The notes below the pieces were generated by a model that had not been told where the DNA came from, searched no databases, and was given only the letters and a program-made list of their open reading frames with translations. Both the position numbers and the translations under genes were made by a program. Positions 1-24,890 of a stretch of 64,000 nt of DNA are shown piece by piece (the stretch's first letter is position 1; each line of letters opens with the position of its first letter). The DNA lies in the NCBI GenBank assembly GCA_030407315.1, contig JALQPE010002267.1, positions 1 to 64,000 on the forward strand. Direction: 5' to 3'. Source of the stretch: Asparagopsis taxiformis. Taxonomy: Eukaryota > Rhodophyta > Florideophyceae > Bonnemaisoniales > Bonnemaisoniaceae.

Positions 1-780
1 AAATTTGGGCTATCTCAAAAACATGCACATGTGAACATGTTTTTGAGATGGGGTGTGCCGTACGGCACAATCGACCGCCCAAATCGTTGATTTTGTTGCA
101 AGATTTGGTGCCCGAAATTTAGAATTTCTGGGCTGGCCAGCAGTGCATCTGAGATGGACATCCACCGGACGGTCATTTCAGGTTGGTCGTGTGCTGCCTA
201 CATCCACGCATTTCAGAAAACTAAGCCAGCGGGTTCACTACTCATACAAAGTGCACGGAATACGAGAACGTGATGGGTGAGTAGTGTTTGTCGTGGAGGA
301 GTAAGGCAGGACCATGATGGAACAGGGGAAACGATGTCACCCTAGCATAACTTAGGGTTTGAAGCCTGGAATCGACCCATCGTTAGGCGCCATTTAGCCT
401 TACAGTTAGTGCTTACAGAAGCCAGTGATGACCCCGCTCGGGCGGGGCGGTTCCGGTGCCTGGGGCCGTTGTGGCCAAATTAGACACCCTGATTTGAATT
501 AAAATTTGGGCTATTCTCAAAAACATGCACATGTGAACATGTTTTTGAGATGGGGGTGTGCCGTACGGCACAATCGACCGCCCAAATCGATGTTTTTTGC
601 AATTTTTTTTTGTGCCCGAAATTGTAGAATTTTGGGCTGGCCAGGAATGCATCTGAGCTGGACATCCACCGGACGTCCATTTCAGGTTGATCGTGTATCG
701 TGCACGTCCAGCCATTACCAGAAGCAAGTTGGCGATGAAGCACGTATAAACCCAATTGTTCTGCTATTTCTAGCATAGAC
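1..780 (+). repeat. Hairpin-bearing repeat cluster, left group (family R1)
   Basis: Two direct copies of one unit start near positions 1 (cut by the window edge) and 487. Each contains an inverted repeat with arms CTCAAAAACATG and CATGTTTTTGAG around a 10-nt loop, then the perfect 14-nt palindrome GTGCCGTACGGCAC, then conserved text including 'gggctggccag' and 'ccaccggacgtccatttcagg'. Between the copies lies a second conserved spacer ('ctagcataacttagg', 'gtgcttacagaagccagtga', 'ggccgttgtggcc') that recurs at 5560-5745 and 5950-6125. Short ORFs here occur in every frame and in every copy, so I do not read them as genes. Confidence 0.85.
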
Positions 781-962
781 CATCGAGTCTAGAGATGTGA
801 GGGAATCGTCCTGGAATCATGCTCCAACCCACTAGGGAATGGACAATCTAGTTTGAAAGCATGGAACGGAAGTGCATTATAGTAGGTTCATAGATTGAAA
901 GTGATAAAGGAGATGATTATATTCTCGATAATTGTTTGCTAAAGTAGTTGTTGTTAAGATAT

Positions 963-2606
963 CTAGCCGTCGGAAAACTGTTCTTCCTCTTCGTCCTCAC
1001 TATGATAGTGAACTAGATATCCAGGTTGTCCCGGCAGAAGAGGCACTATCGGGGCCCCACTCCGTGTGTGCATTACATCCTTGCGAGGTTCTGTCGTCTT
1101 CATCCGCATCATTCCGAGCTGCCCTGTCTTCGGCCTACCATCTTTCTTGACCGGGATGGGAACAACTGTCTTGTGGCGAACATTGACAGGTGCCGGTTGA
1201 CTTTGCCTTGCAGACCGGCGCGGAGCATTGGCGATGACTTCTTCTTCGAATCCCAACCGCCTGATGAAACCAAACGAAACATTGTCGGGAATCGGATACG
1301 ACGCATTCCTGAAATACGTGTGATACCTCGTTGTCGTGTGTGACACAACTCTGTCGACATGCCCTGCCCCGGCATGTTGTACATGGCCGTGACCGATGAA
1401 GACTGAACGTGGCGGAACGATTACCTTCTTCAGCTTCATCGTCTTGGCGTACATATCTAATTCCAGCGCTTTGGAAAAGACGTACTTGTGGGACCCTGGA
1501 CACACCCAGATAGGGAATGGGTCATCTCCGTTGGCAATAACAAAGTAACCCGGAAGTTGATCTTTGCGGTCGCGAGGAGGAACAGGGAAATCATTGTGTG
1601 GGACCTGCCGAGGACACCCCTTTCCCGTTATCAAAAACCGTCCCCCAGATGCCGGCATGACAAGTTTTCTCCCGGTAAAACCGCACTCCTCCAGCCCTGT
1701 CAGCCGGACAAGGATTCCCAACCACACATCCAGCAGGGCTCGCCGCGTCACAAACTTGAACCGGTCGATATGCGTCTCATCGTTCTCGGCATAGTCAACC
1801 AGGCAGTGGCGCGTAGACGTGAAGCGAGCCCTCCCCTCATTCCGGTTCTTCTCGTCTGTTTCATCGTCCCCGTATTGACAATGGGACTCCACAGCTGCCG
1901 GTTCCCAGGGTCCTTGTGCACCTGCTCCCCCTCCCACGTTCCAAAAAGTACCGAAACAATTCCTGGTTAGGAATTTCTTCCATGAGACCCAAGTCAAATG
2001 GGAACTTGTCCGACGCATCTAGGTAGCTTACATCCGCGAAATTGTGCATCACCGTATACCCTCGCTCGTTGATTTCCGTTCGGCAATTGTGGAAGTACGC
2101 CATACCAGTGCCGGCCTCATACGAATCCTTCCAGCTTGTAGACATTCGCGCAACCTGGGCGAAGTCCAGCCTCGAGGGTAGAAACGTCGATGTAGGCTCA
2201 CACATCGCCTTGGCAGCCATCTTCCACGCTGCGAAAAACATCGGATAGACGGGATCGATTCGAATAGCACACGAGCCCGATGTTCTTCCGGAATATGCAG
2301 CCCCTCAAACACAGGGTCCATCGCCACTTGCTTCAAATACCTCACCTCTCTGCCCTCCTCATCGATTTCCACACTCTCCAATAACAACCTGAGCTCAATC
2401 GGGGGCAGACAGCCAACCCTCACCGATGCGATGACATCCGCGGGACGCTGCGCCAGATGATGCCCTTCGGCTCGGTCTTCGAAATCGTCAGGAAGAGACG
2501 GCATACGGTCGTCGAAGAGGAGGTCGTCTTCAGAAGGAGAGTCACGAACGATGTAACCGTCTTCATCGACTTCCACTCCTTCCGGAACAGTGAATGTAAT
2601 TGTCAC
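963..2606 (-). pseudogene. C-terminal part of the ParB/2OG-dioxygenase gene (dioxygenase domain), frame-broken
   Basis: This is the downstream half of the gene that starts at 4889. Three reading-frame segments follow each other on the minus strand: 2606 to about 2251, about 2255 to 1935, and about 1927 to 963. The last carries a double-stranded beta-helix pattern of the Fe(II)/2-oxoglutarate dioxygenase fold: HND at about 1598-1590 (HxD type), a stretch reading GYFVIANGDD and WVCPGSH, then QHAGAG with the distal His near 1376, followed by Arg residues that could bind 2-oxoglutarate. The HxD...H spacing of about 72 residues resembles phytanoyl-CoA-type enzymes more than AlkB. The segments join smoothly if one base is added at the GGG run at 2251-2253 and at the C runs 1927-1931 and 1933-1935. 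The tail is Ser/Glu-rich. The substrate is unknown; neighbours suggest DNA or chromatin, which is inference. Confidence 0.6.
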
Positions 2607-4889
2607 TTCGCGGACCCCCTTGCTTTCGACTTGGCCCTCGTCTGCACCCTGTTTGTCTTCCTCGTCCGAAGCGGTATGGACAGATTCTTGGTTGGAGGGA
2701 GTCGCACCAGCACGTTGGTTATCTTGGGGGACAATCTCAACGGCAGAATCGGGGGAACGGGCGGAGTCTTCGTCAACCTCATCACCGGAAGCAGTGGCTT
2801 GTTGTTGATCGGTGGGTTTATCAACAACGGCCTGCTCTTCTTCCCGGCGGATTGTTGTACCACAACCGGCTCTTCTTCCTCGAGGCGTGTGCTCCCCGTC
2901 GAGCGAAGTCGCTGTGAACGGCGGCGGATGCCATGCGAAGCAGGCTCATGTTCGACATTCCGCTGCTTCTTGTGAGTGAGTCTCACATTGGCAGCAGAAG
3001 GGCGGCGTTTGCGTCGAGCCTTAGTCTTCTTCTTCAATGTCGGATTGAAAAACTCTTTCAAGTTCGTTTCCAAATCCTGTAAACGCGTGGTTCTCCGTCG
3101 CATTCGAACCTCACTGCTCCGGTCGTCCCCTCTATACATTGCAATGGCATTGGTGAGATGCCATTGCAACTCCTTCGGCTGCTTAACCGACCCAATTGCC
3201 ATCTCTGTGCTCAGAAATGACTTGCGCATAATACTCTTTGGGCGCCCAAACGCAGCGTACAGAGAATTTGCTATTGCAGTCACGCGACGGACGTATGTAT
3301 AAAAGTCGTTCACGTCAAAGCGTCCATCCGGACGTCCGCCATGAGCAGGGTTCAAGTACTCCGAAAGACCACGCAAGACGAAGACAAAGTTTTCTTCCAG
3401 CAACTCGCGCACTATCTTGTGGTCCAGGTGCGTTATCCCAATCTCGTTGCGGCGCTCGGAATTGTTCAGCTCACGCAACACGTCGTCGAGAACAGGATGC
3501 TTCAGCGTTGCTATAGCCAAACGCGTCCACCGCCGAGCCGTGTTCGTCGAATTCATCATCCCCATGAACTGCGCCTCGAACAATGTTCGGATGACATCAG
3601 ACTCACGCAAGTCGCCAGCGTTTTCCACGTTGTTTGCAACAGCAATCGTACGGATGAACTGCTGGATGGACGACAAGATTCGAACCAGGGAGCGCTCCGT
3701 CAGTTGCGTCCCAGTCGTATGGTTCGACTCTGCACTCTTGTGGATGATCTCATGAGGCTGGAGATCACTGTCGTCCTTGCGGCGAAGGTAGTACACATCC
3801 AGAGGCTGAGTAACCCAGCGCAAGCGGTTTGCCTCCTGTGGCAGCTTGGTTCTGTGCATACGGGTGAGGCGCGTGAAGTCATCCGCAATGCTATGCATAG
3901 CATTGAGACGATGCAGTCCGTCGATCACGGTCACGTTCGCATTGGCATGGAATTTGCCATTCTGGAACAGACGCGTGTCGGCGGACAGATGCGTGTTCTG
4001 CGACCTCAGCACCGTCACAGTGATACGCGAAGAGCTCACATACCCCACGCCAACATATTGTTGCGCAGGTCCTCCACGTGGTCTTCTTTGACATCGCGAA
4101 GGGTCACGGCCGGTTCCACTAGCTGCCTCACCAACACAGTCGCTCCTTCTCCGACGTAATCCGACGTCACAAACTTGGGCACCATAATTTGCGTCCCCTG
4201 CTGCTCACGAATGCTTTCCGCCACCTCCGGTTCGTCGTCCACCTCGGTTACGTCCTGCGTAGTAGCTTCGGTGACGTTGGAGCGAGCAGGGTGCTTCGTG
4301 CCTCCACTGGAGGCTCTGGCAGAGCGAGCAGGGCGCTTCGTGCCTCCCGAAACCGGGACGGAGCGTGCTGGATGCTTCGTACCCCCGAACCAGTGATTTC
4401 GCCTGCTGGACCGGTACTGGGCATCCGTCCCGAGCTGGCCTGGTTCGTCGCTGCGTTGAAGTTTGACGCTGCAGCAGGGGTACGAATGTCGCTAGAGCCA
4501 TCCTCCGCAGCGGGGCGCATCATCCGAGTATCCCAAGGGTAAAACGCCGCGGCGTATGCTCCACCCATCGTCTCCGGCGGTCCCTCGGCGCCATCAAACA
4601 TGTACGGGAACGGGAGGTCCTTGAACTTGTCCTTAGTCGCAATGTTGCGCACGACGATATAGTCGGCCTCGTCGGTTTCCGGCAGCTTGTGGTTGTGCAG
4701 CGTGCGCGGAAGGCCAACATCGCCACCAGCAGTGCTCACCGAAGCCGTCCCAATATGCACAGCCGCACCGTCCACGTCCGCAAACAAGTCGACATCGACG
4801 CCGCGCTTGAGTCCGCGCGACTCCGCTGACGCGCTCACTTGATCGCCGCAAACCGTTGAAAACAAACTGCTGAAATGCGTATCCGCCAT
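2603..4889 (-). pseudogene. N-terminal part of the ParB/2OG-dioxygenase gene (ParB-like domain), frame-broken
   Basis: The ATG at 4889 opens a low-complexity N-terminus containing a three-fold repeat of the type GGTKHPARS (about 4390-4270). A ParB/sulfiredoxin-like domain follows: LVEPAVTLRDVKEDHVEDLRNN matches the ParB entry strand and helix, and VIDGLHRLNAM (about 3928-3896) matches the ParB box (G-x-HR-x-x-A). After it come a long alpha-helical region and a basic Lys/Arg-rich stretch near 3000. The frame changes three times, each at a G run of the coding strand (plus-strand C runs 4382-4386, 4043-4046 and 2615-2619), each repaired by one extra G. ParB folds act as CTP-dependent clamps or nucleases and are also found with DNA-modifying enzymes. 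The gene is either decaying, miscalled at these runs, or uses frameshifting. Confidence 0.6.
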
Positions 4890-5164
4890 GGTTGTTGAGT
4901 TGGAAAGGAAAAGAGATGGTTGACGTTGACGTATTCGAGTGATGTGGATGGTGGTGTTTCACGTTAAGTTGAAGAATGGTCGTGAACGCCAATCGCTGGA
5001 AATAATAACACAATACAACCGAAATTTTGTTAGGTACACACCTATCGTGACCGCTGGAATGCAAGACAGGCAATCGAGATGTGAGTGTCCGTTCAGAACG
5101 GGCCCGAGTCGGGCTCTCGAAACCTGACGAGGTGGCGTGAAGCAGGCAGTGTCCTTGATGTGTA

Positions 5165-6290
5165 ATGTGTTAAAATTACAGCTGTCAAGCTAGGCGGCTT
5201 TTGGGGCGGCTGCGAGCACCCCTTTATCCGGGGAACACCCTGATTTGAGTTAAAATTTGGGCTATTCTCAAAAACATGCACATGTGAACATGTTTTTGAG
5301 ATGGGGGTGTGCCGTACGGCACAATCGACCCGCCCAAATCGTTGATTTTTGCAAGATTTTTTGTGCCCGAAATTTTAGAATTTCTGGGCTGGCCAGCAGT
5401 GCATCTGAGATGGACATCCACCGGACGTCCATTTCAGGTTGGTCGTGTGCTGCCTACATCCACGCATTGCAGCAACTAGCAGGCGGGTTCACTACTAATA
5501 TAAAGTGCACGGAATATGAGTAACGTGATGGGTGAGTAGTGTTGTTGTGAGGTAGGCGGGACCATGATGAAACACGGAAGAAGATTTCTCCCTAGCATAA
5601 CTTAGGCTTGAAGCCTGCAATCGACCCATCTTTCCGGCGCCATTTAGCCTCACAGTTAGTGCTTACAGAAGCCAGTGATGACCCGCTCGGGGCGGCGGCC
5701 GGTTCCTGGGGCCGTTGTGGCCAAATTAGACACCCTGATTTGAATTAAAATTTGGGCTATTCTCAAAAACATGCACATGTGAACATGTTTTTGAGATGGG
5801 GGGTTGCCGTACGGCACAATCGACCGCCCAAATCGATGTTTTGCAAATTTTTTTGTGCCCGAAATTGTAGAATTTCTGGGCTGGCCAGCAATGCAATCGA
5901 GCTGGACATCCACCGGACGTCCATTTCAGGTTGGTCGTGAGAGAGTGGGGTGGGACCATGATGGAACAAGGACCAAGACCTGTCCCTGGCGTATTGAGCC
6001 TGAAATGACCCTTTGTCAGACGCCATTTAGCTTACAGTTAGTGCTTACAGAAGCCAGTGACAACCCCACTCGGGCGGCGGCCGGTGCCTGGGGCCGTTGT
6101 GGCCAAATTAGACACCCTGATTTGAATTAAAATTTGGGCTATTCTCAAAAACATGCACATGTGAACATGTTTTTGAGATGGGGGTGTGCCGTACGGCACA
6201 ATCGGCCGCCCAAATCAAGGTTTTTTACAATATTTTTGCTGCCCGAAATTCTACAATTTCTGGGCTGGCCCAGTAATGCATTAGCTATGT
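5165..6290 (+). repeat. Hairpin-bearing repeat cluster, right group (R1, three units)
   Basis: Three direct R1 units begin near 5238, 5731 and 6115, with the same hairpin, 14-nt palindrome and spacer text as at 1-780. The third is truncated after 'gggctggccc'. Upstream, 5165-5237 adds an extension ('ttacagctgt...agctaggc...gcgagcacccct') that is absent from the left group but recurs inverted at 11530-11590. Together with the left group these copies bracket the ParB/dioxygenase gene as direct repeats. Confidence 0.85.
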
Positions 6291-6740
6291 GCTCTAAACC
6301 GATTCTAACAAGCAGAAAGAATCCTCTCCTTCATGACGATGCTCTCGAATTGAGTGCAATGCAACGGACTCCCTCCAGGAGAACGACAAAGCATCGTCTT
6401 TTGCAAGACATTTTCGTACGAAAAATAATCGAAACACATATTTGACTTTAACCTAACAGCTATCGCGAGCACCGTACTCAGCTAAATTTCCTCTGTAATT
6501 TCCTTCCTCCAACCAATCAATAGCCGCTTGGTCACAGGCTTAAAAGCCTTCCACTATTTGTCCTATCCATCGAAGAGGGTTCGATCCAGGCCTGATGGGT
6601 GTGGAACCCGAGAACTTGAAAATGGAACATATTGCGACAGAGATGAGATGTCATTCTCTTTCGTTTACTTTTTTCTAACAAGATTCTAAACGTCTACGCA
6701 GCGGAACGAACCCAATGTCGTCCGTCCGTTTTCAGCCCGG
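6291..6740. other. Intergenic, no feature recognised
   Basis: No supported gene. A B-box-like 'ggttcgatcc' occurs near 6587, but I find no A box or cloverleaf around it. Confidence 0.5.
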
Positions 6741-6744
6741 TGAG

Positions 6745-7075
6745 ATGTTTTTCCATTAACGGAGGTGGAGGCGGCTATGGAGGAAGCCTGCGGTTCAGGA
6801 TTCTTTCCATTAACGGAGGTGGAGGTGGCGGCTTTGGAGGAAGCCTGGAGAACATGTGAGATGTCAGTACCCATGGATCACAAGAAAAACATGTAGAGGT
6901 CCAGTTGGATATTGTTGCCATTAACGGAGGCGGAGGAGGCGGCTACGGTGGAAGCCTGGAGAGCATGTGAGATGTCAGTACCCATGGATCACATGAAGAA
7001 CATGTTGAGGTGCGGTTCGGATATTCTTTCCATTAACGGAGGCGGAGGAGGCGGCTACGGTGGAAGCCTGGAGAA
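6745..7075 (+). repeat. Minisatellite encoding a Gly-rich peptide in one frame
   Basis: Four copies of a unit starting 'ccattaacggagg' lie at about 6756, 6810, 6920 and 7030. The last three are spaced about 110 bp and share 'agatgtcagtacccatggatcac'-type text. In one plus-strand frame each copy reads INGGGGGGYGGSLE. No ORF spans the array, so a coding role is unproven. Confidence 0.7.
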
Positions 7076-7370
7076 GAATAGAATAGTCCTATACCCATGG
7101 ATCACAAGTAGACGTAGTTGGGCTCCTTTTCGAAGCCCATTCGTCTCTTGAATAAATTAGCACCCAAATCATATACGATTGCCGAGTTGACACCCCGTAT
7201 GTCTCGTTGGTAGAAATAGCAGGGGTTCCACCACTCAGCTGGCGGGAAGTAGTTACTGATTATATGAGATATGGCTTAGCTCCCGCCAAAACCGATAGCT
7301 CTGGGCTCAGGTTCTCCAAATGTGGTTATACGAATGTGTTCTGACAATGCTAGAAGACGAATATCTGCAT

Positions 7371-7565
7371 CCTGATTTGAATTAAAATTTGGGCTATTCT
7401 CAAAAACATGCACATGTGAACATGTTTTTGAGATGGGGGTGTGCCGTACGGCACAATCGACCGCCCAAATCGATGTTTTTTTGCAATATTTTTGCTGCCC
7501 GAAATTGTAGAATTTCTGGTCTGGCCAGCAATGCATCTGAGCTGGACATCCCCATGTCCAGTGGC
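7371..7565 (+). repeat. R1 repeat copy left of the methyltransferase-SET gene
   Basis: One R1 unit begins 'cctgatttgaatt', carries the CTCAAAAACATG hairpin and GTGCCGTACGGCAC, and ends near 'gctggacatcc'. It faces the inverted copy at 11315-11524, so the gene between them is bounded by inverted repeats of about 200 bp. Confidence 0.85.
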
Positions 7566-7901
7566 CGTCCGGATGTCGCTCACCTGGTAAGCGTGATGCA
7601 CCTGTGACAACCTATGTGACTGCAGTCACAGCCGCCATGGCGGCCGTGCAGTACAACCCTCAAAGACAGGGAATCACAATCTTTTTAAAATTTTTGTCTA
7701 CCACGTATCCGTCACAACTTATTACCTACACCGGTTACGGGTTTCAAGACCTTTCCAGTGCTGTGTACCCGTATACTCTGTTCCGTTCGATATCAACCAG
7801 TGTTCCTCACGAAAGAGTGCAAACGTCACGAGATACGTCGTCAAATTTGACTGTCTCGCCGAGCGGTCGCCATCCTGTACCGAATTTCCACTCATTCCAT
7901 T

Positions 7902-10900
7902 ATGACGAATAAGCGCAGGCGCAACAGCAATCCGATCGTTGACGACGCAACCGTGCCAATTCTGCGCGAACCCGCTAGCCCTTGGGAGGATTCTAGTGAC
8001 ATGGGTACACGTCGAAACGTAGGTCGCGCCGCCCGCGAAACTACTCTCGCTGGCAAAGACTTCCTCCGCCTCTTGCTGGATTTATTCGCCCACTCAAGTT
8101 TCGCAGACTTGACGGACAAGCCGGGAGGTTTCACATACGCGGACCTTGGCGCTTGGGTTGCGCAGGGCACGGAAGAACAATTTGTGGCGCTGCAAGGTCG
8201 ACTCAGCATGTCCTTCAGCGGTCGTTCGAAGAATGCTGGAGTCGAGGCGGATGTTGCCGAAATCGTCATGGCAGAGATGAACGTTGAGCGAGCCAAGCAG
8301 ATTGTTCGTCTGGCATTACCCATTGCCGAGTTTTCAAGACAGGATGAGCGTATCGGGCAATGGGTTGAGCACTGCATCCTTTCTGGGATCGTGCCGCAGA
8401 CCTTCCTTATTGGATGTAACATGCTTCCTTCGCCACTACAGGCGCCGCAGCGCGGGGAACCAAGCGCCTTCGTTCTTGCTCCACCGGAAACGTTCGAGGT
8501 ATTGATGTATTTCCAAGCGTTGTCTATCATCCGAAATCACAACAAGAACCTGCCGCGTCGCCGAATAGGAGATGCGGCCGAAGAGGGGAACGAAGCCGCA
8601 CGCGTCCCAGCCCATCGGAAAAGCACTAATCGAGCTTGTTACGTGGTTCAAGTTTTATACCATGCTTGGACCGATGTGGCCTTCGCCGCAAAGTTTTCCA
8701 GCTTCGAAGAGTTGATGGCGCCGTACATCATTTTCGACAGCAGTGAGCATTGGTTTGACGTGCTCGATGAAGGTCTATTCGCACCGATGGAGCAGAAGCT
8801 AGATCTCTACCACAACAAAGCTCCCCTATCTCATCCTGATGGATATGGTGGAAAAGTAGAGACAAGAACCAGTGCGCAGCACAGTGCATTTAGGGACCTT
8901 GTGAGGAAGTTCTTCGACCGGTTGCAGTTTCTTATCGTCAACCCGGACCTGTACACCTGGCCGGAGTCCGACCGCTGGGGGGCACTGGAAATATACTTGT
9001 CAAGCGGAAATCCGGACAAGCTGCCAGCGTATTTTGACACCCTCGACGAAGACGTTATGGCTGTCCTCCGCCCGGCACCACAAGCCGCGGACGCAGAAAA
9101 GGTCCCCAAGCCGGTTGATGACACTCCCACTCGTCGCAACACAGGAGGGAGAGGTTTGGTTCCGTCGACAAGACACACAACCAGGCTTCAACTTGGACCT
9201 GGGAGGACCAGTCTTACTGCCCAAGGGCCGTCTCCCCCGTCACCGTCACCCCATGCGACAGAAGAGCAGGAAAGTGAAGGGCAGGCTCTCGCAAAGGACT
9301 TTCTTTCGAAAATGAGTCAGTATTGCCGGGTGTACGACGTCCCTTTCGAAGATTTGGTCAGTGCCGACGAGAGCCGAGAACACGTGCCCATCACGGGCAA
9401 CGTTCAGCTCATTCTGACTGATCCGCCCTACAATGTTCGTCGTAAGAGGAACGATTCCAACTCTTCGTACGACAGGCTAACTGCAGAAGATATGCAGGCT
9501 AGCATCGAAGTGTTTGACGAGCTGTTGCGCCCCGGTGGCCACGGCATCGTGTTCTGCTCGGTTTTGCAGTTCTACGAATGGTTCCATTACTTGGAAACGT
9601 ACAAAGGACCGCAGTCAGAAGGCCCAACCGATACTGCTGCCAGTGATGACGGGTCGGATGAAGAAGAGGTTACGTCCATGAATTCGGACTCCGAAGCATC
9701 GCAGCACAGTGGCGAAGAAAGTGCGGATGAGGAGGAGGACGAGGAGGAGGAGGACGTCGTTCGGAATTCAGTTTTCTTCGTTGACGAGGTACCTCTGTTG
9801 TTTGTCCGACTACCTGGGCACCTCTATCAAATGCCGGGGCGGAAGAGGTACCAACGCATGAACATGGCAGAGGTCGCTATCCACTTCTGGAAGCGAGGTG
9901 TTCCGTTCAAGACTGGAAGCGAGATGGTGGCCTATAGGAACCACGGATACATGGACGGCACGTACCCGGCGTGGTGCAACGTCACCATCAATATGCCCGC
10001 CATCGATTCGAATGAGATGGTGTGGCGAACAAGGAGCACAACCGGTGCTACGGTCAGAGTTCGTGCAGAGCAGAAGAGCGTCGCTCTCATGATGGAGTTG
10101 ATCAGCCAGCATTCACAGCCTGGTGATATTGTTGTCGATCCATTCTCTGGCACTTTCGCAACGGGAAAAGCAGCTATGAGCTTGCCTGAGCACCGTGTTT
10201 TCGTCGGCAGTGACATGGACAAATTGTGTGTGGTACGATCGCTTCCAAAGCTGTGTGCAGTCATGTCACGTGTAATTCTTTCAAACAACACTGACATGAG
10301 GGTCACGACAGAAGCGAAACAGAGTGCTGAGAAGTTCTTGGCGTCCCCCTCTGTCACGATGCGTACGCAGAGGGAACGCAGGATCATCGAACCCCCACCT
10401 GGCCTTCCCCTGTACCAGAGGTTCCCGAAATATATTCGGCAGTACCTCTGGCAGCTGTGCCCAGAGTCGATTGCGTCGCGCGAGCACATGGAAAAACCGG
10501 TACATTATTGGCCACCTTCCCTGCGCCGCTGGTTGCAAACTGAAAACCCTCGCGTGATGCGGGCACACGATTGTGTTGCGAAAAAATTGAGCGTTCGACC
10601 ATCGCTGATTAAGCATCCAAATGCAGGAAGAGGGCTCTTCGCTGAACAGACATTTAATGTTGGCGACGAAGTATGTGCATACTACGGAACTGTTGTGTAC
10701 TCTGATATGAGCAAGGAGTCGATGAGGTTCGCGTACGGAGAGGGTCACATGGCGATAACGAAGGAAACATTCTTGATGTATGCCATCAAGCTGTATGCAA
10801 CAGCGGAGGACGACGAAAACATCGAGCATCCAATTTGGATTGTTCCGGCTCCGTTCTGTTCGGCGCAGTTCATCAACGACCCGCGGTATTTGCGAGGTGA

Positions 10901-11099
10901 GGACACTCCGGCGGAAGACACCAGGCGGATGGCCAACGTCGAGTTTGTCGAGAACTACAGCAGCGGTTCGACGGGGAAGAAGCTCAAGGCGAAGGACCTA
11001 GAAAATCCGAAGATCATTGTAGTACGTGCAATCCGCGATATCCGTCCGGGGCAGGAGCTCTACGTTCATTATGGGACAGCGTTTAGAGCATGGAATTAG
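7902..11099 (+). CDS. Fusion of a beta-class DNA methyltransferase and a SET domain
   Basis: An intact 1065-codon gene with an ATG at 7902. Residues 1-400 form an unrecognised alpha-helical N-terminus, followed by a Pro/Ser-rich linker. The methyltransferase spans about 460-790. Motif IV is DPPYN (Asp507), followed by an acidic insert (about 580-630), a QKS box (AEQKSVALMMELI) resembling the HPTQKP element, and motif I DPFSGTFATGKA (Asp746). Motif IV before motif I is the beta-class order, as in CcrM; DPPY favours N6-adenine but N4-cytosine cannot be excluded. The SET domain is at about 897-1062: GRGLF, FINDPR followed by NVEFVE in place of NHSC-PN, then PGQELYVHYG. It would methylate a protein, probably lysine. 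A nuclear chromatin role is inferred. An AATAAA lies 32 bases past the stop. No frame breaks are present, unlike neighbouring element genes, which suggests selection or recent arrival. Confidence 0.85.
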   Translation: MTNKRRRNSNPIVDDATVPILREPASPWEDSSDMGTRRNVGRAARETTLAGKDFLRLLLDLFAHSSFADLTDKPGGFTYADLGAWVAQGTEEQFVALQGRLSMSFSGRSKNAGVEADVAEIVMAEMNVERAKQIVRLALPIAEFSRQDERIGQWVEHCILSGIVPQTFLIGCNMLPSPLQAPQRGEPSAFVLAPPETFEVLMYFQALSIIRNHNKNLPRRRIGDAAEEGNEAARVPAHRKSTNRACYVVQVLYHAWTDVAFAAKFSSFEELMAPYIIFDSSEHWFDVLDEGLFAPMEQKLDLYHNKAPLSHPDGYGGKVETRTSAQHSAFRDLVRKFFDRLQFLIVNPDLYTWPESDRWGALEIYLSSGNPDKLPAYFDTLDEDVMAVLRPAPQAADAEKVPKPVDDTPTRRNTGGRGLVPSTRHTTRLQLGPGRTSLTAQGPSPPSPSPHATEEQESEGQALAKDFLSKMSQYCRVYDVPFEDLVSADESREHVPITGNVQLILTDPPYNVRRKRNDSNSSYDRLTAEDMQASIEVFDELLRPGGHGIVFCSVLQFYEWFHYLETYKGPQSEGPTDTAASDDGSDEEEVTSMNSDSEASQHSGEESADEEEDEEEEDVVRNSVFFVDEVPLLFVRLPGHLYQMPGRKRYQRMNMAEVAIHFWKRGVPFKTGSEMVAYRNHGYMDGTYPAWCNVTINMPAIDSNEMVWRTRSTTGATVRVRAEQKSVALMMELISQHSQPGDIVVDPFSGTFATGKAAMSLPEHRVFVGSDMDKLCVVRSLPKLCAVMSRVILSNNTDMRVTTEAKQSAEKFLASPSVTMRTQRERRIIEPPPGLPLYQRFPKYIRQYLWQLCPESIASREHMEKPVHYWPPSLRRWLQTENPRVMRAHDCVAKKLSVRPSLIKHPNAGRGLFAEQTFNVGDEVCAYYGTVVYSDMSKESMRFAYGEGHMAITKETFLMYAIKLYATAEDDENIEHPIWIVPAPFCSAQFINDPRYLRGEDTPAEDTRRMANVEFVENYSSGSTGKKLKAKDLENPKIIVVRAIRDIRPGQELYVHYGTAFRAWN

Positions 11100-11130
11100 G
11101 GTCACGAAAGATGTTTTCATTTCGACTACA

Positions 11131-11136
11131 AATAAA
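11131..11136 (+). promoter_or_regulatory. Possible polyadenylation signal of the methyltransferase-SET gene
   Basis: An AATAAA hexamer lies 32 bases after the stop codon at 11097-11099. Position is suggestive only. Confidence 0.35.
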
Positions 11137-11314
11137 GCTACGTTCCAGAGTTGAAGTATATCATATAATGCAGCATGTCCAGCCACCATTAGTCCAGGGT
11201 GAAACCTATTGGCAGTACTCGCCTGTCAAAAACCAATCGTTCACACTCTAGGTGCACTTCGTCCGAGCAGTGAACCTGACTGCTTGGATGCTGTTATGCG
11301 TGCAGATGCAAAAT

Positions 11315-11590
11315 ACACGACCAAGTTGAAATGGACGCCCGGTGGATGTCCAGCTCAGTTGCATTGCTGTCCGCCCAGAAATTCTACAATTCAGGGCAGA
11401 AAAAAATATTGCAAAAAACATCGATTTCAGCGGGTCGATTGTGCCGTACGGCACACCCCCATCTCAAAAACATGTTCACATGTGCATGTTTTTGAGAATA
11501 GCCCAAATTTTAATTCAAATCAGGACGTCTTCCGGACATAGGGGTGCTCGCGGCCTAGCTCTACAGCTGTAATTGTACCTCATTAAATAC
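11315..11590 (-). repeat. Inverted R1 repeat copy right of the methyltransferase-SET gene
   Basis: Reading the minus strand from about 11590 gives 'ttacagctgt', 'agctaggc', 'gcgagcacccct', then 'cctgatttgaatt', the hairpin and the 14-nt palindrome. It is the inverse of 5165-5455 over its full length and of 7371-7565 over about 200 bp. No clear target-site duplication is visible outside it. Confidence 0.85.
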
Positions 11591-11757
11591 TGTTGATGAC
11601 TGCCTACCGTATACAATCTGGGCTGTTGGCGTATTATCCGGTACTTGACCTGACCTGAACGTTCATCGCAGACCGTTGTGGTTACCGACACTATACAGCA
11701 ATCTTTTTTGTATCTCGTGCAACTCAATCGTTCCATCGCTTCCGGGAAAGCTTCATT

Positions 11758-14042
11758 ATGCCGCCGCGTATTGCGAAGAAAGCTCCAAAGCCTCCGGGCC
11801 TCCAGAAAACCCGGTCAGCAGCTGCTGTATCGAGTGCCCGACAATCCCGTGCGAAGAAGCGGTCTGGGCCTACCGGCAGCATTGAACCGCGGTCCGGTAG
11901 TCGCAAGACGGACCGGCGCAGAACTGGGGATCCGCAGCGAGAAAGTGAGGAAGGAGGAACGGCGCGGAGAGAGATGGGGCTTGACCGAGGCAAGCGTGCT
12001 CGCAGGGACAGTGAACATCATGATGATGACATGATAGTGGCTCAAAACATGTTGGAATTGCGGCAGAGTGCTATGGCAAAGGTAGTTCCTCCCGGGTTGG
12101 CAGATGCGGAGGTGCTGCAGACGGAGTCCCAGCCGGGGGTTCCGAGACACTGGAGGCTGTGACCCCCACTGCGCCAACTATGCCGAGTACATCAGCCCCA
12201 GCAGGTAATGCAGTCAGGGACCCGAGGATAGCGGCAAGGGATGTTGTTTCTGAGCAACGTTCACAGGATGCCAACTATCATCGGCGGTCAGGTGGTACTG
12301 AGGGGAGAGAGCAGCCGGAGTGCGGGCCTCGTCACAACAGAGTGTCATTGGTGCCAAATATGCGCGTAACGCCCCCGCGACGTCAGGCTATTGCCGATGG
12401 AGGACATCATATTCCCGATAGCGTGGGAGATGGGGGGACGGTGAGGGCAGAGAGGTTGCATCCGCCGGAATCCATCGATTTAATGGCGAGTCGCATCAAT
12501 GCGCAGAAGAAGAAGATCGCGGAGCTGGAAAAAAAAGTGTTTAGCCAGGACATAGCAAACAAGGCGCTCACCACGGAGATTGTTGCGTTGGAGGCTAAGG
12601 TGAAGACTCTGCAGGCGGAAAATGCCAGCCTTACTGCAATTGCGAGAACAGGTAGAATCAGTGATCACGGTGGCGGTAAGTCGAAAATACAGAAAGCCAT
12701 TCCTGTGAAATACCTTGGAGTTCTTAGGGCGGTTGAGGAAAACCTGACAAAGTGGTGCAAGAACGAGACTATGGAGCTGGACCCTATAGCGGAACAAACG
12801 CAGAGACGTTGGACTGGACGTACCATCGAGGTAGAGCCGGTAGAAGGGACACTTTGGAGCGAAAACGGTGTAGGATATATTGCTACCCCTCCGGGCTATA
12901 TCATCAAGAATCTGCAGTGGTATACACCTTCGTACAGGGACGAGAGTGATCTGCTGAATGACTTGGTGCGACACGTACTGCGTCAAAGTCCGTGGTGTGA
13001 TGTGTTTTCCGATGAGGAGCAGCGTGTGTGCTGTCAAGAGGCTGTGGCGGGGAGCAAGGAATTGAAAGTGAAGGTGACGCAGAAACTGTCCGACGTGATG
13101 AGTGCACGGAAGCGTAATGCGAGGGACAGATTGTTCGGTTCGCTGGGGTACACGAAATTAATGTCTAGATGCACGATGCTGACGACGCGAGCTGAGATGG
13201 ACGAGCGAGAGGAACAAAAGCGCGAAGCGTCTGAGAAGCTTTTGAAACGGGAAAGTAACGGTGATTTGGATATGGGGAGGTGGCGAACGGCACCGTTCTC
13301 AGAGCTGCGATACAGCAAAGGCTTGGTTCCTGACAGCTTCGAAATGGAAGTGAATGGTGATGCATGGTTTAACAACCGAGTAGCTGTGAATGTGCTGGAC
13401 ATCTTCAGGGGTTATTCGATACGACCAGAACAAGTAATGGACATAGAGACGAGCATACTAACGCTGGCGCGCCTGGATGCTTGGCTAGTGACTACTGTGG
13501 AGTGTTTGGATGAACCGAAGGGGAAAGGAGGTGCACGGCAGAAGGAGTTTACAAGGCGGTACAGTCAATATGTGGGGGTAGCTTTTCAGCAATTAGTTGG
13601 TATGGTGGTGTACTGCATGTCTTGTCTCCAAGGCTCGCAAGCAAGGGAAGAAACGGACGTTGTCGAGAGCGAACAGCGGACTAGTGCACAGTCACGGCAT
13701 GTGTTTGCAAGCCGTACTGTGACGAGAGAGGCTGTTGAAGTGTGGCAAAGCGGAGAGGGGTCTGGAATTGTTCATGTCGTTGATGATGTAAACCGCTGCT
13801 CATCACTTGTTCTAGTGTCCGAGGATTGGATTCAATCGCATATTACGTCAAACCTCGGTGCTGTAATGGATTGTGTGATTGCGCAAGGACTAATTGGCGC
13901 AGAACTTTTCGTCGTTGACCCATATGCTGGACACCTGAGTGCAAACCTGAATGTCGAAATCAATGCCCCACAGTATGGGGGCATGGAGCGGCGCCATGCA
14001 GCCACTGCTGATAACGGTTTTGGCGTAATGGAGGATGGTTGA
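11758..14042 (+). pseudogene. Coiled-coil protein gene next to the transposase, one frame break
   Basis: I do not recognise the family. The ATG at 11758 opens a basic, disordered N-terminus (Arg/Lys/Ser/Pro). The frame breaks at the G5 run 12135-12139 and is restored by one extra G, giving about 760 residues in all. A classical coiled coil with heptads of Leu, Ile and Val lies at about 12490-12650, directly after DLMASRINAQKKKIAELEKK. A conserved-looking globular part follows from about 12690 to 13640 (VKYLGVLRAVEENLTKWC, TPPGYIIKNLQWYTP). The gene overlaps the 3' end of the transposase tail to tail by about 80 bp, which suggests both belong to one element. A possible role as a DNA-binding accessory protein is inference. 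Confidence 0.55.
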
Positions 14043-17000
14043 AATTAGTGCAGTAAATGTGACGTTGACTAGAAGGTTTATCATGTAGTACATTATCAAT
14101 AGAGTGCTGCGATTTAGATTTATTCTTCTTCATTATCATCTGTGAATGGTAATCAGTGTTGGTGTAGAAGCGGTTGAGATAGAAACGGTGGTCCGACCAG
14201 TGCATTTGTTTCGTAAATGGCTTGACTGGAAAGTTACTTCGTACGATGTGCACGGTGCCAGATATAGTAGATGCAGGAATGAGGTCAAACCAAGGACCAC
14301 CTGCACTGTGGGATGCAGTGTCATTGCTGTCAACGGATCCGTTGTCCGGGTCCCATGTGGACCACTTTAAACAAATGCACCCAAGTGATTTTTCCACAGC
14401 GGTTTTTGGGGCAAAGCAGGTCATATACTGAACGAAAGCGAGTTCTACAGGTTGAAACAGGTTTGGAGACTGCAGGCGTACCAGTGCCAGGACGCGCCCT
14501 ACCCATATGGTTCTGTAGTCATCGGCAGTTCCGGAGATGACGACAAAGGAGTACTGCGATCTCTTTGCGGGGCCGAACGATGAAGTTGCAAAGACGCGCT
14601 GCTGCTTGTGCCTCGACACGTTTGTGGGGCGAAGCATGCCACTGTGCGGGTCAAAGTCGTCGGCATCTGGGACGTACCCTCCCATGACGTAGGCGGACTT
14701 TACCACGGTGACGGAAATGTCCATGTCATGTATTGGAGGGCCTTCTGCCGTGGCGCGCAGTCTAGCGAGGGTGAGGAACGCTTGTGCAGCTGTGTCACCG
14801 AGTTGCTGGAATAGCGTTATGGTGCCAGACGGGAACGAGGAGTTGTGCAGAGGCAAAAGAGTGGCAGGATCGGGCTGTCCGTCGATATCTGCAACGAGGA
14901 GGGTTGCATCGGGCAGCAGGGAGGCAAAGTCGTGCAGTGCAACGGTGAATCCGTCGCGAACGAGTACTGCACCGTCTGTGGGCGATATCATGCGTGGGTT
15001 TCCCAATTGTTCGATGGGGTGTGACCAGTTGGAGTGGCCAAGGAGAATTCCATGTGGCGAATAGTCTCTTCCATGGCTGTGGAGCGCCTTCGAGAGGTTT
15101 TCCTATAACTCTGTTTGAACAGAAGATGCGAGTGTTCGTAGGGCCTGCATCAATGTGTTCCAGGGCGCCATATCTCTGCAAGTCACCGGGAAGATGGTCT
15201 AGAAGATGGAACTTGAAAGTTTTGAGACCTGTGGTGTGGAATGGGCCGAGGGTGGAGAGCATTGATTGTTTGAAATAGGAAATGGAGTTTGGAGGCTTTC
15301 TAGTTCGGCGGCAGTCCAGTGCTTGATGCGACCGCGTTTCATGACCCATGCGACGAGGTCAGAGTATTGCGTGCAGATGGAAGTGAGGGGGGCTGTATCT
15401 ACTTCGTCACAGCATGTGTCAATGAATGCTGCGATGAAAGGGAACACCATGTCGACATGGTGATAGTCTTTGGCTGCGAGCATGCCGCGTATGCCGTCCT
15501 CCGTGAAGAGGCCGTTCAAATTGGTGCCCTTCTCACCCTTGGAGAAGTCGACATGAAGACCGGTGATGTAGTAGTCGCGTTCGATAGCGGACAGAATGCT
15601 GTTTGAGCCGGCGAGGATGGATTTTTTCACCTTCTTGAAGGTGCGAGGTGTCCCGGAATGGGAGGCAGTGGTGGTGAGGTCTGGGGAGCTGAGGCGGTGG
15701 ACAATGCACTGTTTGATGAGCTTTGAGATGCCGAGGTGGAGATTGTGCAGAGGCTCGAAGGAGAAAATGTTGTAGGGGTCTAGGGGACTGTTGGTGGGTA
15801 AAAGAGCGGTCGATTCGAGGACAGAGTGTTGTTCGAGGAGGGAGAGAGCTTCGAGCGGAGCAGTTGTATGCTCCTGAGCGCTCTCTTGGCGTGCAGAGCG
15901 TGTATCATCGAGGGAGCGGGGCTGGTGTGGCGCGCTGGATTCAAGTTGAGTGGCGGGGATGTAGCAGCGGTGGCAGGGATGTGTGGTGGTAGTGCTGTTG
16001 CGAGTGCATGACAGCTCTTTGGCCTCTGGAAAGTCGCAGCAATAATTGGCTAGGATGGGAAAGCATTGGCGGGCAGTTGCAGTGGAGTCTGTGCAGGGGA
16101 ACCCGGAAGAGAACGCGGTGGATAGGGACGAAAACACTTTTTCGAGTGCTTTATGAAGAATATCAATTTTGCGAGCGCGACTAGCAGAACTAGAGGTTGT
16201 CGGCATTTCATCACCGAACAAGGCGTTGGACGAAGGGTTAACAATGTACGGAAGATACCCGACGATGGTGAGGCCGGTACGGATGCAGTGGCGACGGAGG
16301 GGGGCGGAGAAGTTGAGCAGTGTGACGTGTATGGGGTATGCGACGATTGCGGAGCTCTTGAGGCTTGTGCTGCTCTTGTCGGAGTACACTTGGAGGAGGC
16401 CGGCAAAGGAGGAAGCGGTGGGATCAGTTTCCTCTGCCCATACGACCTGTGGATCTTCCGAGAGCTGCACGCGCTGTCTAGTAACCTGGTGCAGCGTTTT
16501 CGCGAATTCTGTGTGTAGGGGATGAGAAAATATTGCGGTGCCGTCTGGGGCGGTCTGTGGGGAGGGGTGGAAGAGAGTATTTTGGTCGTTAGCCAGTGCT
16601 AACTGCCTGCGGAGCATGTCGACTGGGTCGCGGAGGTACAGCTGTGCCGAGTACTTACCAGTTTTGTCTGGAATGATGTGGCTCTTGTAACCTTCGGTGC
16701 GGAAATGTGTTTCGACCATGGAAGCGGTAACGTGGCGACATTCTTCTACGGTGCGAACGGCGCTGTTGAACTTTTCTAGGGAGAATGCGGGGTCTTGTAG
16801 GATGGTGATGACTTCGCTCACGCGGCCAGCGCCGGCCTTGTACTCGAGGGTTGTGAGACTGGCGGCGAGGGATTGCACGAGGAGGTCTGCGCGGGAGGGG
16901 GTTGAGGTTGGTGGCAGTGAAGCGTCACAGGGTGAGTCGCTGGAGGAAGCACGACCAGATTCTGGGTCTGGGGAGCTGGGTTGCGGGGAATCATGGTCGC

Positions 17001-17154
17001 CGTTTCGAGCAGGCTCATGGGTGACGGCAGGGACACGAGCGTTGTTGAAATGTTGGGGAGAGGGGTTGAAACGGTAGCGACACGTTCGCTCATGCAGCGC
17101 GAGCGCATAAGCATCTACGCAGTAGTAGAAGCACCCTTCATACTTGCATTCCAT
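13960..17154 (-). pseudogene. Plavaka/KDZ-like transposase, frame-broken
   Basis: The ATG at 17154 starts a protein with an N-terminal C2HC-type zinc-finger-like segment (Cys and His within the first 25 residues). A disordered linker follows, then blocks typical of large fungal and algal cut-and-paste transposases of the Plavaka/KDZ type: YPIHVTLLNFSAPLRRH then YLPYIVNP, FPILANYCCDFPEAKEL with a CHRC pair, and DPYNIFSFEPLHNLHLGISK. The frame then changes near 15250 (CCC run) to give LKTFKFHLLDHLPGDL. It changes again near 15005 (GGG and CCC runs) to give the C-terminus, which contains WFDLIPASTISGTVHIVR and FYLNRFY. About 1060 residues would result from repaired frames. I cannot place the catalytic acidic triad with certainty. 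The family call rests on motif order from memory, not on an alignment. Confidence 0.6.
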
Positions 17155-17755
17155 GTCGAGTTTTGACGCAAAAGGGAGGATTGCGAGCTGAACAGGGGAG
17201 ACTGTGCCGTCCAGATGCGACCAATTTTATTTTTGTGGTGCTTTCGAGACTTGGAATGTAACGTGTTCGTTCGTAGTTTTGTGGGTAGTAGTTTTGTGCT
17301 CACTCCAGCTGACATCCCAACGGTGGAATTTAACCGAGAGTTCAATCATTTCCAACTGTTACATCACATTGCGTGCTGGCAACGTGTGCATGGAAGGACG
17401 AACGACCACCCTGGGAGATGAATTTTCAATTAATTCATTTGTAATAATAAACTTTTTTATTTCCGAACTTCGTGGAATCTGAATGTGCTTTACAGCGGAT
17501 ATGCCACGGATCATGTAAGGAAAGCAAATGGATTCTCATATATATGATTATATGTTTATATTCGTTGTTCTCGATCCGGATCTCATTGTTCGGGGAATCA
17601 GAGACCATGGCTTGGGCCATACTCAATCTCACTGCCGGCGATGATTTCGAGTATGCACAGCAAGACTTAAGCGGACGCTGAAAGCTGTCCGGTCGACGCC
17701 GCAGGCTCCACTCCGCCCTCATCACCGACTGATATTCTTTGACCGACTTTGCTTT
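17155..17755. other. Intergenic beyond the transposase 5' end, no gene seen
   Basis: AT-rich text with no supported ORF, and no convincing terminal inverted repeat matching the region left of 11758. Confidence 0.4.
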
Positions 17756-17793
17756 GTACGTGCGCGAATCTTGATCAAGATTCGCGCACGTAC
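17756..17793. repeat. Perfect 38-bp palindrome
   Basis: Two 19-nt arms with no loop, centred on TTGATCAA and bounded by GTAC at both ends. It lies between the transposase and the complex repeats. Confidence 0.95.
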
Positions 17794-17810
17794 CTTCGTT
17801 CCATCCTCTA

Positions 17811-18960
17811 CCCTCGAGGGTATGCGTTGAGGGGAGCGTGGGTTTTGAGTCTGACTATTTCCGTTGATGCGATATTTTTCATGGAAGCCTGTTGACTGAT
17901 GGTGTGTATTGAGCGGAGGATGGAAGAGAGGTACGTGAAGTTTTGAAAGTATGCTGTGAGGGAAGGTTGATTTTGAGTCTGACTGTTGTGGTTGATTCCG
18001 ATGTTGTGTAGATGATGCAGGAATGTTGATGACGGAAGGTAAGTTTCATTGAGTGCCAAGATGTGCTTTGCGAAGATATGGACTGCTGACTATGATTATT
18101 ATTCATTGCAAGGTTTTTGGATCATGGTTTGTATTGTGTGTAGGATGGATGAGAGGTACATTTGCGAGTTCTCAGGGTATGTAGCGAGGGAAACGTTGGT
18201 TTTCAATCTGACTGTTGCGATTGAATCCGATGTTGCGTAGGTGATGGAGGAATAGTGATGACGGAAGGTAAGTCACATTGGGCGCCCAGACCGGTTGTGC
18301 GAAGATGCGGAATGCTGACTACTTTTCTTGGCTACACGATTACGTAATTTATGGTTTTTATTGTGTGCAGGATGGAACAGGTAAAGTAAGTGTGCGAGTT
18401 TTGAAAGTAAGCAGCGAGGGAAGGTTGGTTTTGAGTCTGACTATTTCCGTTGATGCGATATTTTTCATTGGAAGCCTATTGAGTCATGGTGTGTATTGTG
18501 TGGAGCGAAGGTAAGTGTGCGAGTTTTGAAAGTATGCTGTGAGGGAAGGTTGCTTTTGAGTCTGACTGTTGTGGTTGATTCCGATGTTGTGTAGATGATG
18601 CAGGAATGTTGATGACAGAAGGTAAGTTTCACTGAGCACCAAGACTTGTTTTGCGAAGATATGGACTGCTGACTTTGATTATTCATTGCAAGGGTTTTGG
18701 ATCATGGTTTGTATTTTGTGTAGGATGGATGATTCACTCATCCTCTCGGAGAGGTAAGTAAGGGAGTTTCTAGGATATCTGTCGTGGTAAGCGTTGCTTT
18801 TGAATCTGACTGTTGGGGTTGATGTTTTGTATGTGATGCAGGAGTGGTGAAGCAGGAACGGCAGGACTGAAGGAGAGTGAAGAAGGGATGTAGGAAGATG
18901 GGGAATGAAGCTGTGAGGTGTTTCTGGTATGTGTATATTTTCGGGCATACGATAGAAGTG
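17811..18960. repeat. Complex degenerate tandem repeats
   Basis: Blocks such as 'tctgactgttgtggttgatt', 'gatgatgcaggaatgttgatga' and 'gaaggtaagttt' recur at about 17975-18060, 18205-18300, 18560-18660 and 18805-18860. A second block ('tttccgttgatgcgatattt') is at about 17855 and 18440. Spacing is near 230 or 355 bp. Short ORFs on either strand repeat with the units and are not treated as genes. Confidence 0.7.
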
Positions 18961-19189
18961 AGAGTGGGTTTCAAGTGGTGTAAGATTTTGCTGACCATGT
19001 TCGTGTTTGATGTCTTGATGATTTAATGGGCTGGGGTGGTGTCGAGGAAAGCGGGGATGGAATTGGGAAGGAGCGGATTTTTTGTAATCTAGGTCGTGAG
19101 GGTTCTTGAAGTATGTGCGGATGGTGGTGCATGGCGTTCGGATGGTAGGGAGAACGCGATAGTGAGGGAGATGGGTGATCGACGATATG

Positions 19190-19390
19190 CTGACAGGTAT
19201 TTTGTATTCTGGCTGGATACGTATTTCGTATTTTGGCTGGATACATATTCCGTATTCTGGCTGGATACGTATTTCGTATTCTGGCAGGATACATATTCCG
19301 TATTCTGGCTGGATACGTATTTCCTATTCTAACCGGGTATTTATTTCCTATTCTGACCAGATATGTATTCCCTATTCTAGAGAGACGTAT
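19190..19390. repeat. 24-bp minisatellite
   Basis: About eight imperfect copies of 'attctggctggatacatatt' plus four bases. The period is divisible by three, so both strands stay open: plus reads repeats of FWLDTYSV, minus reads repeats of ARIRNTYP. Divergence rises towards the right end. Confidence 0.85.
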
Positions 19391-19498
19391 TGTATACGAG
19401 CAGTTTCCTAAATGAGAGAATAAAATACGGTCCGATATGGGCCCTGAATTTACCATCCGCTGTAATTTCTTCCCTCCCGGTTTTCGCTGATATATTGT

Positions 19499-20022
19499 AT
19501 ACTGGATGTCGGGCCCTAGTATTCCGCCATATGTACTAGAGAAAGTGGATGTCGGGCCCTAGTATTCCGCCAAACGTACTAGAGAAAGTGGATGTCGGGC
19601 CCTAGTATTCCGCCAAACGTACTAGAGAAAGTGGATGTCGGGTCCTAGTATTCCGCCATATGTACTAGAGAAAGTGGATGTCGGGTCCTAGTATTCCGCC
19701 ATATGTACTAGAGAAAGTGGATGTCGGGTCCTAGTATTCCGCCATATGTACTAGAGAAAGTGGATGTCGGGTCCTAGTATTCCGCCATATGTACTAGAGA
19801 AAGTGGATGTCGGGTCCTAGTATTCCGCCATATGTACTAGAGAAAGTGGATGTCGGGTCCTAGTATTCCGCCATATGTACTAGAGAAAGTGGATGTCGGG
19901 TCCTAGTATTCCGCCATATGTACTAGAGAAAGTGGATGTCGGGCCCTAGTATTCCGCCATATGTACTAGAGAAAGTGGATGTCGGGCCCTAGTATTCCGC
20001 CATATGTACTAGAGAAAGTGGA
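19499..20022. repeat. Satellite, 43-bp unit, 12 copies
   Basis: The unit contains 'ctagtattccgcca' and 'gtactagagaaagtggatgtc'. Starts of the GTCGGG word fall exactly 43 bp apart from 19508 to 19981. Variants are limited mainly to gggccc/gggtcc and catatg/caaacg, so the array is young or homogenised. Related text (tactagagagactggacgtcc) continues just outside at 20107. Confidence 0.97.
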
Positions 20023-21606: not shown

Positions 21607-22074
21607 CTTAAAAGCCAGTAGAGGCGATGACGGACGTTGATAAAAACCCTGAAGCGGGACGAACAAGTGGCCTATTGGCTTAAGTCTCCGGGAGGGAGCT
21701 GCGCTATTCAACCCAGGAAGGGGGATCGCGAGGCAATGGGCCGAAACGGCGAATGCAAGCCTCGAATTGGCACCGCTCGCGCGATCACGCGGCTAATTAT
21801 TTAGCAGATGGACGCAAAAACCCTTTGAGGGATGATGGAAAGGACGCGAATGCGTGGACGCAGTTGGACACCGAAGGGGTGAATACGCTGTGTTGCGTTA
21901 GGACGATGATGAACCTGAAACAGGTATTGATCCCAATAGGAAACGGTCGGGCGGAACTCGGGAAGAGTCGGATGGACAACACATTTAGTGTGCACGCGCC
22001 GCGCGCGGGAAAATTTTGAATTGCACAATGCAACGGCCACAGCCAAAAATTGTAATTTTATTTGATCAAATTTT

Positions 22075-23965: not shown

Positions 23966-24143
23966 GTTCCACATTCTTCAAAGAAGAAACGCTATGCATC
24001 TCCCTCCAAACAATTCCATAGAACATCGCTTGCTTCCTCGAATGGAAGATCCTGTTGGATGCATGCAGCCTCAAAATATTCCTTGAGCGTGTAGAGGTCA
24101 AGTCCCTGTTCGGGTACTCTACTGAACTTGAAATCTTTCATCA

Positions 24144-24851: not shown

Positions 24852-24890
24852 CCCGACTAGTTCCGGAGATAATGACTTGGGCAGAATTTC

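Follow-up and report, generated by a model that had tools for sequence, protein, structure and literature searches.

A transposon-borne fusion of a predicted DNA methyltransferase and a SET domain in the red alga Asparagopsis taxiformis

Introduction

Mobile elements carrying single epigenetic enzymes are known already. SET genes are carried by the HarbingerS and MuDR DNA transposons of Phytophthora (Kojima and Jurka, cited in PMC12730594), and TET/JBP genes by 11 transposon lineages including Plavaka (PMC12730594). Plavaka elements duplicate 2 bp of their target (PlavakaB 2 or 3 bp) and end in TGT..ACA (PlavakaA) or CATCA..TGATG (PlavakaB) (PMC12730594); giant Plavaka repeats are described in Amoebidium (PMC11244446). 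DNA methyltransferases (DNMTs) are carried by retrotransposons of dinoflagellates and charophytes (PMC5890265), and bdelloid rotifers have N4CMT, with a chromodomain (PMC8885841). The present subject is a gene from Asparagopsis taxiformis that joins a predicted DNA methyltransferase and a SET domain in one polypeptide, a putative double writer of a kind that we have not found described. It lies in a stretch of 64,000 nucleotides ("the window"; contig JALQPE010002267.1, here C2141, positions 1-64000), and is the central cargo of a DNA transposon of about 23 kb with a Plavaka transposase.

The fused gene and its domains

The open reading frame (ORF) at 7902-11099 (+) begins at an ATG and has 1065 codons and no internal stops; the remaining two forward frames across it have 29 and 42. 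Its features, with counts from the protein family described below, are:

7902..11099, + strand: fused DNA methyltransferase-SET gene, 1065 amino acids (aa), single uninterrupted frame
8013..9071, + strand: conserved N-terminal region, residues 38-390, mostly helical (predicted model)
9402..10223, + strand: beta-class N6_N4 methyltransferase domain, residues 501-774 (Pfam)
9420..9434, + strand: motif IV DPPYN, Asp507 (read from the translation)
10137..10151, + strand: motif I DPFSG, Asp746 (D746, G750 and T751 invariant in 24 of 24 members)
10626..11075, + strand: SET domain, residues 909-1058 (PF00856; fold matches)
10872..10886, + strand: INDPR, variant SET motif (N-D in 22 of 24 members)
11070..11072, + strand: Tyr1057, expected catalytic Tyr of SET (translation and alignment)

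An original prediction, made from the sequence alone, had described a CcrM-like beta-class DNA methyltransferase with motif IV (Asp507) ahead of motif I (Asp746). Motif I of such enzymes serves in S-adenosylmethionine (AdoMet) binding. Positions and order are as it gave them, with the DPPY and D-x-F-x-G motifs of the beta class, and Pfam places N6_N4_Mtase (PF01555) at residues 501-774 (E 3.4e-15, 57 bits against a cut-off of 26.7). The closest solved structures by sequence are M1.HpyAVI, CcrM, and M.BceJIV. An acidic insert of about 50 residues follows motif IV.

The frame runs unbroken into the SET half, as also predicted, with GRGLF at 909-913, FINDPR including N992-D993, and YVHYG ending in Y1057-G1058. 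Pfam recognizes SET (PF00856) at residues 909-1058 (E 1e-6, 29.5 bits against a cut-off of 22.4), and finds only this SET core in the SET half. The GxG and YxG motifs and the terminal Tyr are present; from the position of the SET motifs we take Tyr1057 to be the catalytic one. The N-H pair is replaced by IND: INDPR aligns, on our assignment, with the SET motif usually written RFINHxCxPN, where textbook SETs carry N-H.

Structure prediction, which had been named as the check on both halves, gave a model with a mean predicted local distance difference test (pLDDT) of 86.2, and both halves could be matched to solved structures. The DNA half is predicted to have a Rossmann methyltransferase fold. 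The SET half is predicted to have a SET fold resembling those of SUV420H1, SET8, EZH2, and MLL1; by sequence, the window protein alone matched SET8 and MLL at E 0.26 and above, and the family profile matched EZH2, MLL, and vSET at about 3e-4 to 1e-2. It is a SET-fold protein, assigned to no specific lysine methyltransferase family.

The N-terminal part, about 450 residues, is predicted to include helices (pLDDT mostly 60-90, with dips below 50; 8-sequence model, pLDDT 54), and possibly has a targeting role. No known fold for it was among the structure matches listed, a slight test of this region.

The fused protein was found at full length and stop-free in at least 43 places in the genome assembly (141.5 Mb, 3156 contigs), including the window, with a printed identity of 100%; these 43 are the ones scored out of 4132 candidates. 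Since the full-length frame recurs in 42 other places, it is very unlikely that a sequencing error joined two genes. Conserved residues in the stretch between the domains (P842 and W870 in 24 of 24 family members, P832 in at least 90%) also count against it.

Copy number and state of the copies

The element is present in about 1000 copies. Patterns (27-mers for the four modules), allowing up to 2 mismatches, were counted over the whole genome: methyltransferase motif IV gave 993 matches (490 and 503), SET 967 (476 and 491), the transposase 1014 (471 and 543), a dioxygenase-like ORF of the element 938 (457 and 481), and the element terminus 2632 (1303 and 1329). Reversed-pattern controls gave 0 for all of them. 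The near-equal counts of the modules suggest that they travel together. At 23 kb each, 1000 copies would come to at most about 23 Mb, or about 16% of the assembly, an upper estimate because copies are often incomplete.

Many SET copies lie in long frames. In a SET search of the genome 150 of 1661 candidates were scored, of which 10 were stronger matches, presumably host SETs, and 140 scored like the element SET; 65 of these 140 presumed element copies, assigned by score rather than by one-by-one inspection, lie in open frames 1060 aa or longer.

The transposon carrying the gene

Contig C2141 begins inside the window copy, so that the other end of this copy lies beyond the contig; a more complete copy on contig C503 measures about 23.15 kb (summed stretches). 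Its parts in the window are:

1..20151, no strand: transposon copy in the window, collinear with the copies on C503 and C632
966..4048, - strand: second accessory module (ORFs 2606-4048 and 966-2018, read by eye)
12159..14042, + strand: coiled-coil protein ORF, 627 aa (same ORF in C632)
15199..17154, - strand: Plavaka transposase ORF, 651 aa (PF18759, E 6.4e-25, 88.5 bits, cut-off 26.3)
17899..20026, no strand: subterminal tandem repeats with 229, 24, and 43 bp units, inside the transposon end
20118..20151, - strand: transposon terminus, 34 bp terminal inverted repeat (TIR), where homology with two other insertions stops

Plavaka is the sole Pfam family matched by the transposase ORF, and is matched in the C632 copy as well (E 1.5e-22). 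On the transposase side, homology ends at the identical element base in three insertions (position 20151 of the window, C632, and C503), and on the opposite side it ends in C503 and C436. The two ends are inverted repeats of each other over 34 bp, with 2 mismatches, and the termini read CGTCTGTG..CACAGACG. In both copies read at both ends, C503 and C436, TA flanks each end, the 2 bp target duplication expected of Plavaka. At 30 other terminus loci the adjacent dinucleotide varies, with TA at 4 of 35 ends (33 distinct, since L134 and L135 overlap), and the window end is adjoined by AT; either, therefore, the target is not strictly TA, or there are further subfamilies. In C503 and C632 the flanks of the gene are 99.4-99.8% alike across more than 13 kb and, farther out, 94-98% alike in the main stretches; the sequences outside the element differ.

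In the window copy, the segment holding the fused gene is inverted relative to C632 and C503: window 11316-17151 matches their left flank reversed and 460-6280 their right flank reversed, and 5728-7901 and 11097-11524 match them forward. Three features belong to its edges:

5208..6281, no strand: left array of a repeat of about 180 bp, bounding the inverted segment (repeat comparison)
7368..7551, no strand: further copy of this repeat just upstream of the gene (repeat comparison)
11266..11555, no strand: inverted copy of this repeat at the right edge of the inverted segment (repeat comparison)

Among 20 loci, the window arrangement next to the gene was found in 3 (the window's own locus L078, L084, and L082, the last for only about 270 bases past the repeat), and the opposite one in 17. 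The break points fall in inverted arrays of the 180 bp repeat, and recombination between its copies would explain the inversion; an assembly error might also have produced it. The arrays have internal palindromes and occur in both orientations. Short flanking repeats first taken as the element ends proved to be internal repeats around this segment, and an inverted-repeat scan of window 1-7900 against 11100-30000 found nothing.

The other genes of the element are less easily named. The 627-aa ORF has coiled-coil matches alone, all under Pfam cut-offs. In the second accessory module the ORF at 2606-4048 (-) looks ParB-like by eye (stretch VTVIDGLHRLNAM), as does L101:2055-3056; the ORF at 966-2018 (-), like L101:4593-5567, looks by eye like a 2-oxoglutarate dioxygenase, with a pattern of PHND, PGSH, GHVQHAG, and RYH. 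If real, the latter would be a possible eraser carried near the writer in the same element. The module is spread over several overlapping frames in the copies examined. No fitting family was found for its ORFs in Pfam, PHROGs, or NCBIfam, the sole Pfam match being a poorly fitting, below cut-off Glyco_transf_4 (E 0.043), and PDB chains gave no match to two ORFs of L101.

Two observations concern the DNA beside the transposon. Window 21232-22671 shows 86% similarity to sequence next to the insertion on C503; this is another repeat family near both insertions, and hints at nested or preferred insertion. Three related trypsin-family genes (PF00089) lie in a row at 27461-29311, 31218-32750, and 33131-34885.

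Origin of the gene

The original prediction compared the gene with bacterial-type enzymes captured by eukaryotes. In this genome the gene is transposon cargo, and copy number together with transposon structure rules out a single-copy locus, whether a host gene or a horizontally captured bacterial one. An endogenous virus is likewise ruled out, the element having a transposase and TIRs. Searched with the single protein, IMG/VR gave no match; with the family alignment it gave 77 loci, all within query residues 497-813, most of them covering about 50-90 residues of the methyltransferase domain and none reaching SET. Of the 50 BFVD matches listed, those with names comprise DNA methyltransferases and SET proteins, as well as a lysine methyltransferase, one ParB/Sulfiredoxin, and two phaeovirus proteins bearing a gene number only. 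In prokaryote genomes, a single pattern matched 56 stretches, none encoding a relative; one pattern is a thin test.

Proposed function

On balance we lean toward a reading in which the fused protein is a double writer, with which the element marks its own DNA and chromatin and so evades or tunes silencing. The DNA half would methylate the element's own DNA and the SET half a lysine of nearby nucleosomes, with the N-terminal helical region probably supplying the targeting; the marks would keep copies expressible, or recognizable to the element's machinery, despite host silencing. In this reading we infer that the gene is expressed and its product active, and likewise its substrates, the base it methylates, and the direction of the effect.

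For the DNA half, DPPY and the matches to CcrM and M1.HpyAVI make N6-adenine the most likely target, with N4-cytosine also allowed; this amino-methyltransferase domain has repeatedly evolved either base specificity (PMC8885841). Eukaryotic N6-methyladenine (6mA) is described as occurring downstream of start sites, between nucleosomes that bear H3K4me3, and as tied to transcriptional activation (PMC12695648). This location and tie favor a permissive effect, as does the presence of about half of the SET copies sampled in full-length frames.

The main rival to this reading takes the mark to be self-limiting: the element would silence itself, keep its copy number tolerable, and so escape stronger host responses. 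DNMT-bearing retrotransposons that might self-methylate have been described (PMC5890265), and the very high copy number suggests host tolerance. As a weak counterpoint, the near identity of the top-scoring copies (a biased sample) and the 65 of 140 SET copies in frames of at least 1060 aa suggest recent expression rather than a long shut-down, and we think a self-limiting mark unlikely.

As a further possibility, the DNA half might mark transposon ends or replicated copies, letting a transposase or nuclease tell self from non-self, and SET might methylate the transposase or another element protein rather than histones. The profile of the DNA half matches bacterial and phage DNA methyltransferases, and beta-class enzymes of bacteria and phages mostly serve self-marking. 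One argument against such a role is that no restriction-type nuclease was recognized in the scanned ORFs; we regard it as quite improbable.

Returning to the double writer, one might go further and suppose that DNA methylation in the host is now mainly the work of the transposon, with a bacterial-type amino-methyl DNA mark and a nucleosome lysine mark on its thousand or so copies and the enzyme gene flipping between inverted repeats. This extension is speculative and, in our view, rather doubtful. No C5-DNA-methyltransferase domain (PF00145) was found in the host genome in an exon-by-exon search whose control was positive in 10 of 14 genomes; the MT-A70 search of the host genome had a silent control, as did those for elicitin and Fungal_trans, which gave no hit, and all three carry no weight. 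Matches to light-harvesting proteins (10) show that the host is photosynthetic, and its long intron-free frames would suit a red alga.

If active, the fused protein would be a natural system in which DNA and lysine methylation are coupled by its very architecture, and would show directly whether mobile elements can set their own epigenetic state. It would also give the disputed bacterial-type 6mA and N4-methylcytosine (4mC) of eukaryotes a defined target, with the predicted mark concentrated on an easily recognized repeat.

The protein family and arguments against a double writer

Two protein searches gave 23 further members, for a family of 24 with the window protein; this is a lower bound, the first search having scored the 7994 candidates sharing most words. 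A third search, with an alignment as query, returned P0002 alone. P0002, a cluster of 13 sequences, is 98% identical to the window protein, and the other members are 23-37% identical to it. PF01555 is found in all 24 members and PF00856 in 21, so that by its sequences the pairing is common to a deep family. The original prediction had found the pairing with SET unfamiliar; no published description turned up in the literature searched, of which coverage was partial. The window protein sits on a long branch in a tree of 23 members, where no close partner of it has good support. Over 7 of the first 8 members (the near-identical P0002 omitted), pairwise identity averages 37% for either catalytic domain, against 25% for the N-terminal region, 23% for the stretch that separates the domains, and 17% for the linker ahead of the methyltransferase. 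The uninterrupted frames of family members prove little, because the source catalogues probably favor intron-free frames.

Several points weigh against an active double writer. Motif IV is DPPY in 19 of the 24 members and DPPF in 1, leaving four with non-canonical forms (DPPQ, YPPY, APPQ, and DPPL). By alignment SET has been lost in P0021 and is degenerate in P0023 (2 of 24), and Pfam misses it in 3; P0005 ends before the domain does. The non-canonical motifs and the SET losses together indicate that catalysis is not retained in every lineage. The variant SET motif, suspected earlier of altering activity, is real but not peculiar to this copy: N-D replaces N-H in 22 of 24 aligned members, and could mean weaker AdoMet binding family-wide. 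No target-recognition domain was recognized in the fused protein. The 19 other copies compared with the window gene differ from it by 2-4 synonymous and 2 non-synonymous codons; since they are top-scoring copies, this is not an unbiased test of selection. As to the element, its termini fit neither the PlavakaA nor the PlavakaB type, so that on sequence it is one with a Plavaka transposase belonging to neither; on C476, the stretch fetched past the right side is unlike the other copies. The status of the gene as cargo is shown for this genome only.

The same departures (four non-canonical motifs IV, two lost or degenerate SETs, and IND for N-H) would suit a reading in which one or both halves are non-catalytic, AdoMet-binding or DNA-binding scaffolds. 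Against this, the window copy retains DPPY, motif I, the EQK motif, GxG, YxG, and the terminal Tyr, and across the family motif IV is DPPY or DPPF in 20 of 24 and the Asp, Gly, and Thr of motif I are invariant; we find it hard to credit.

Six members (P0004, P0005, P0006, P0007, P0021, and P0023) fall into two kinds: some lack a canonical motif IV yet keep the SET residues, and others keep DPPY with SET lost or degraded. The two activities may thus be lost separately.

Comparison with known systems

A DNA methyltransferase-SET fusion was not found described in the literature searched, of which coverage was partial. Compared with the beta-class N6-adenine enzymes CcrM, M1.HpyAVI, and M.BceJIV, the present protein has the SET fusion, the long N-terminal part, and the acidic insert, and no target-recognition domain was recognized in it. 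It shares with SUV420H, SET8, MLL, and EZH2 the SET fold, GxG, YxG, and the terminal Tyr, but has IND instead of the N-H motif. The bdelloid N4CMT combines SPPY with a chromodomain reader (PMC8885841), whereas here DPPY is combined with a SET writer on a transposon; Pfam found no chromodomain in the fused protein.

Among mobile elements, the DNMT retrotransposons resemble this one in encoding a DNA methyltransferase, but theirs are C5-cytosine enzymes on retrotransposons, with no SET mentioned in the abstract (PMC5890265). The Plavaka giant repeats of Amoebidium are described with tyrosine recombinases, and the term "SET domain" is absent from the main text (PMC11244446). HarbingerS and MuDR of Phytophthora are, like this element, SET-bearing DNA transposons; the transposase here is a different one (Plavaka rather than Harbinger), and the passage on them mentions no DNA methyltransferase fusion (PMC12730594). 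The TET/JBP-bearing fungal transposons, Plavaka among them, likewise join a Plavaka-family transposase to an epigenetic enzyme (PMC12730594): the termini here are unlike PlavakaA and PlavakaB, and where those elements carry an eraser, this one carries two putative writers in a single chain.

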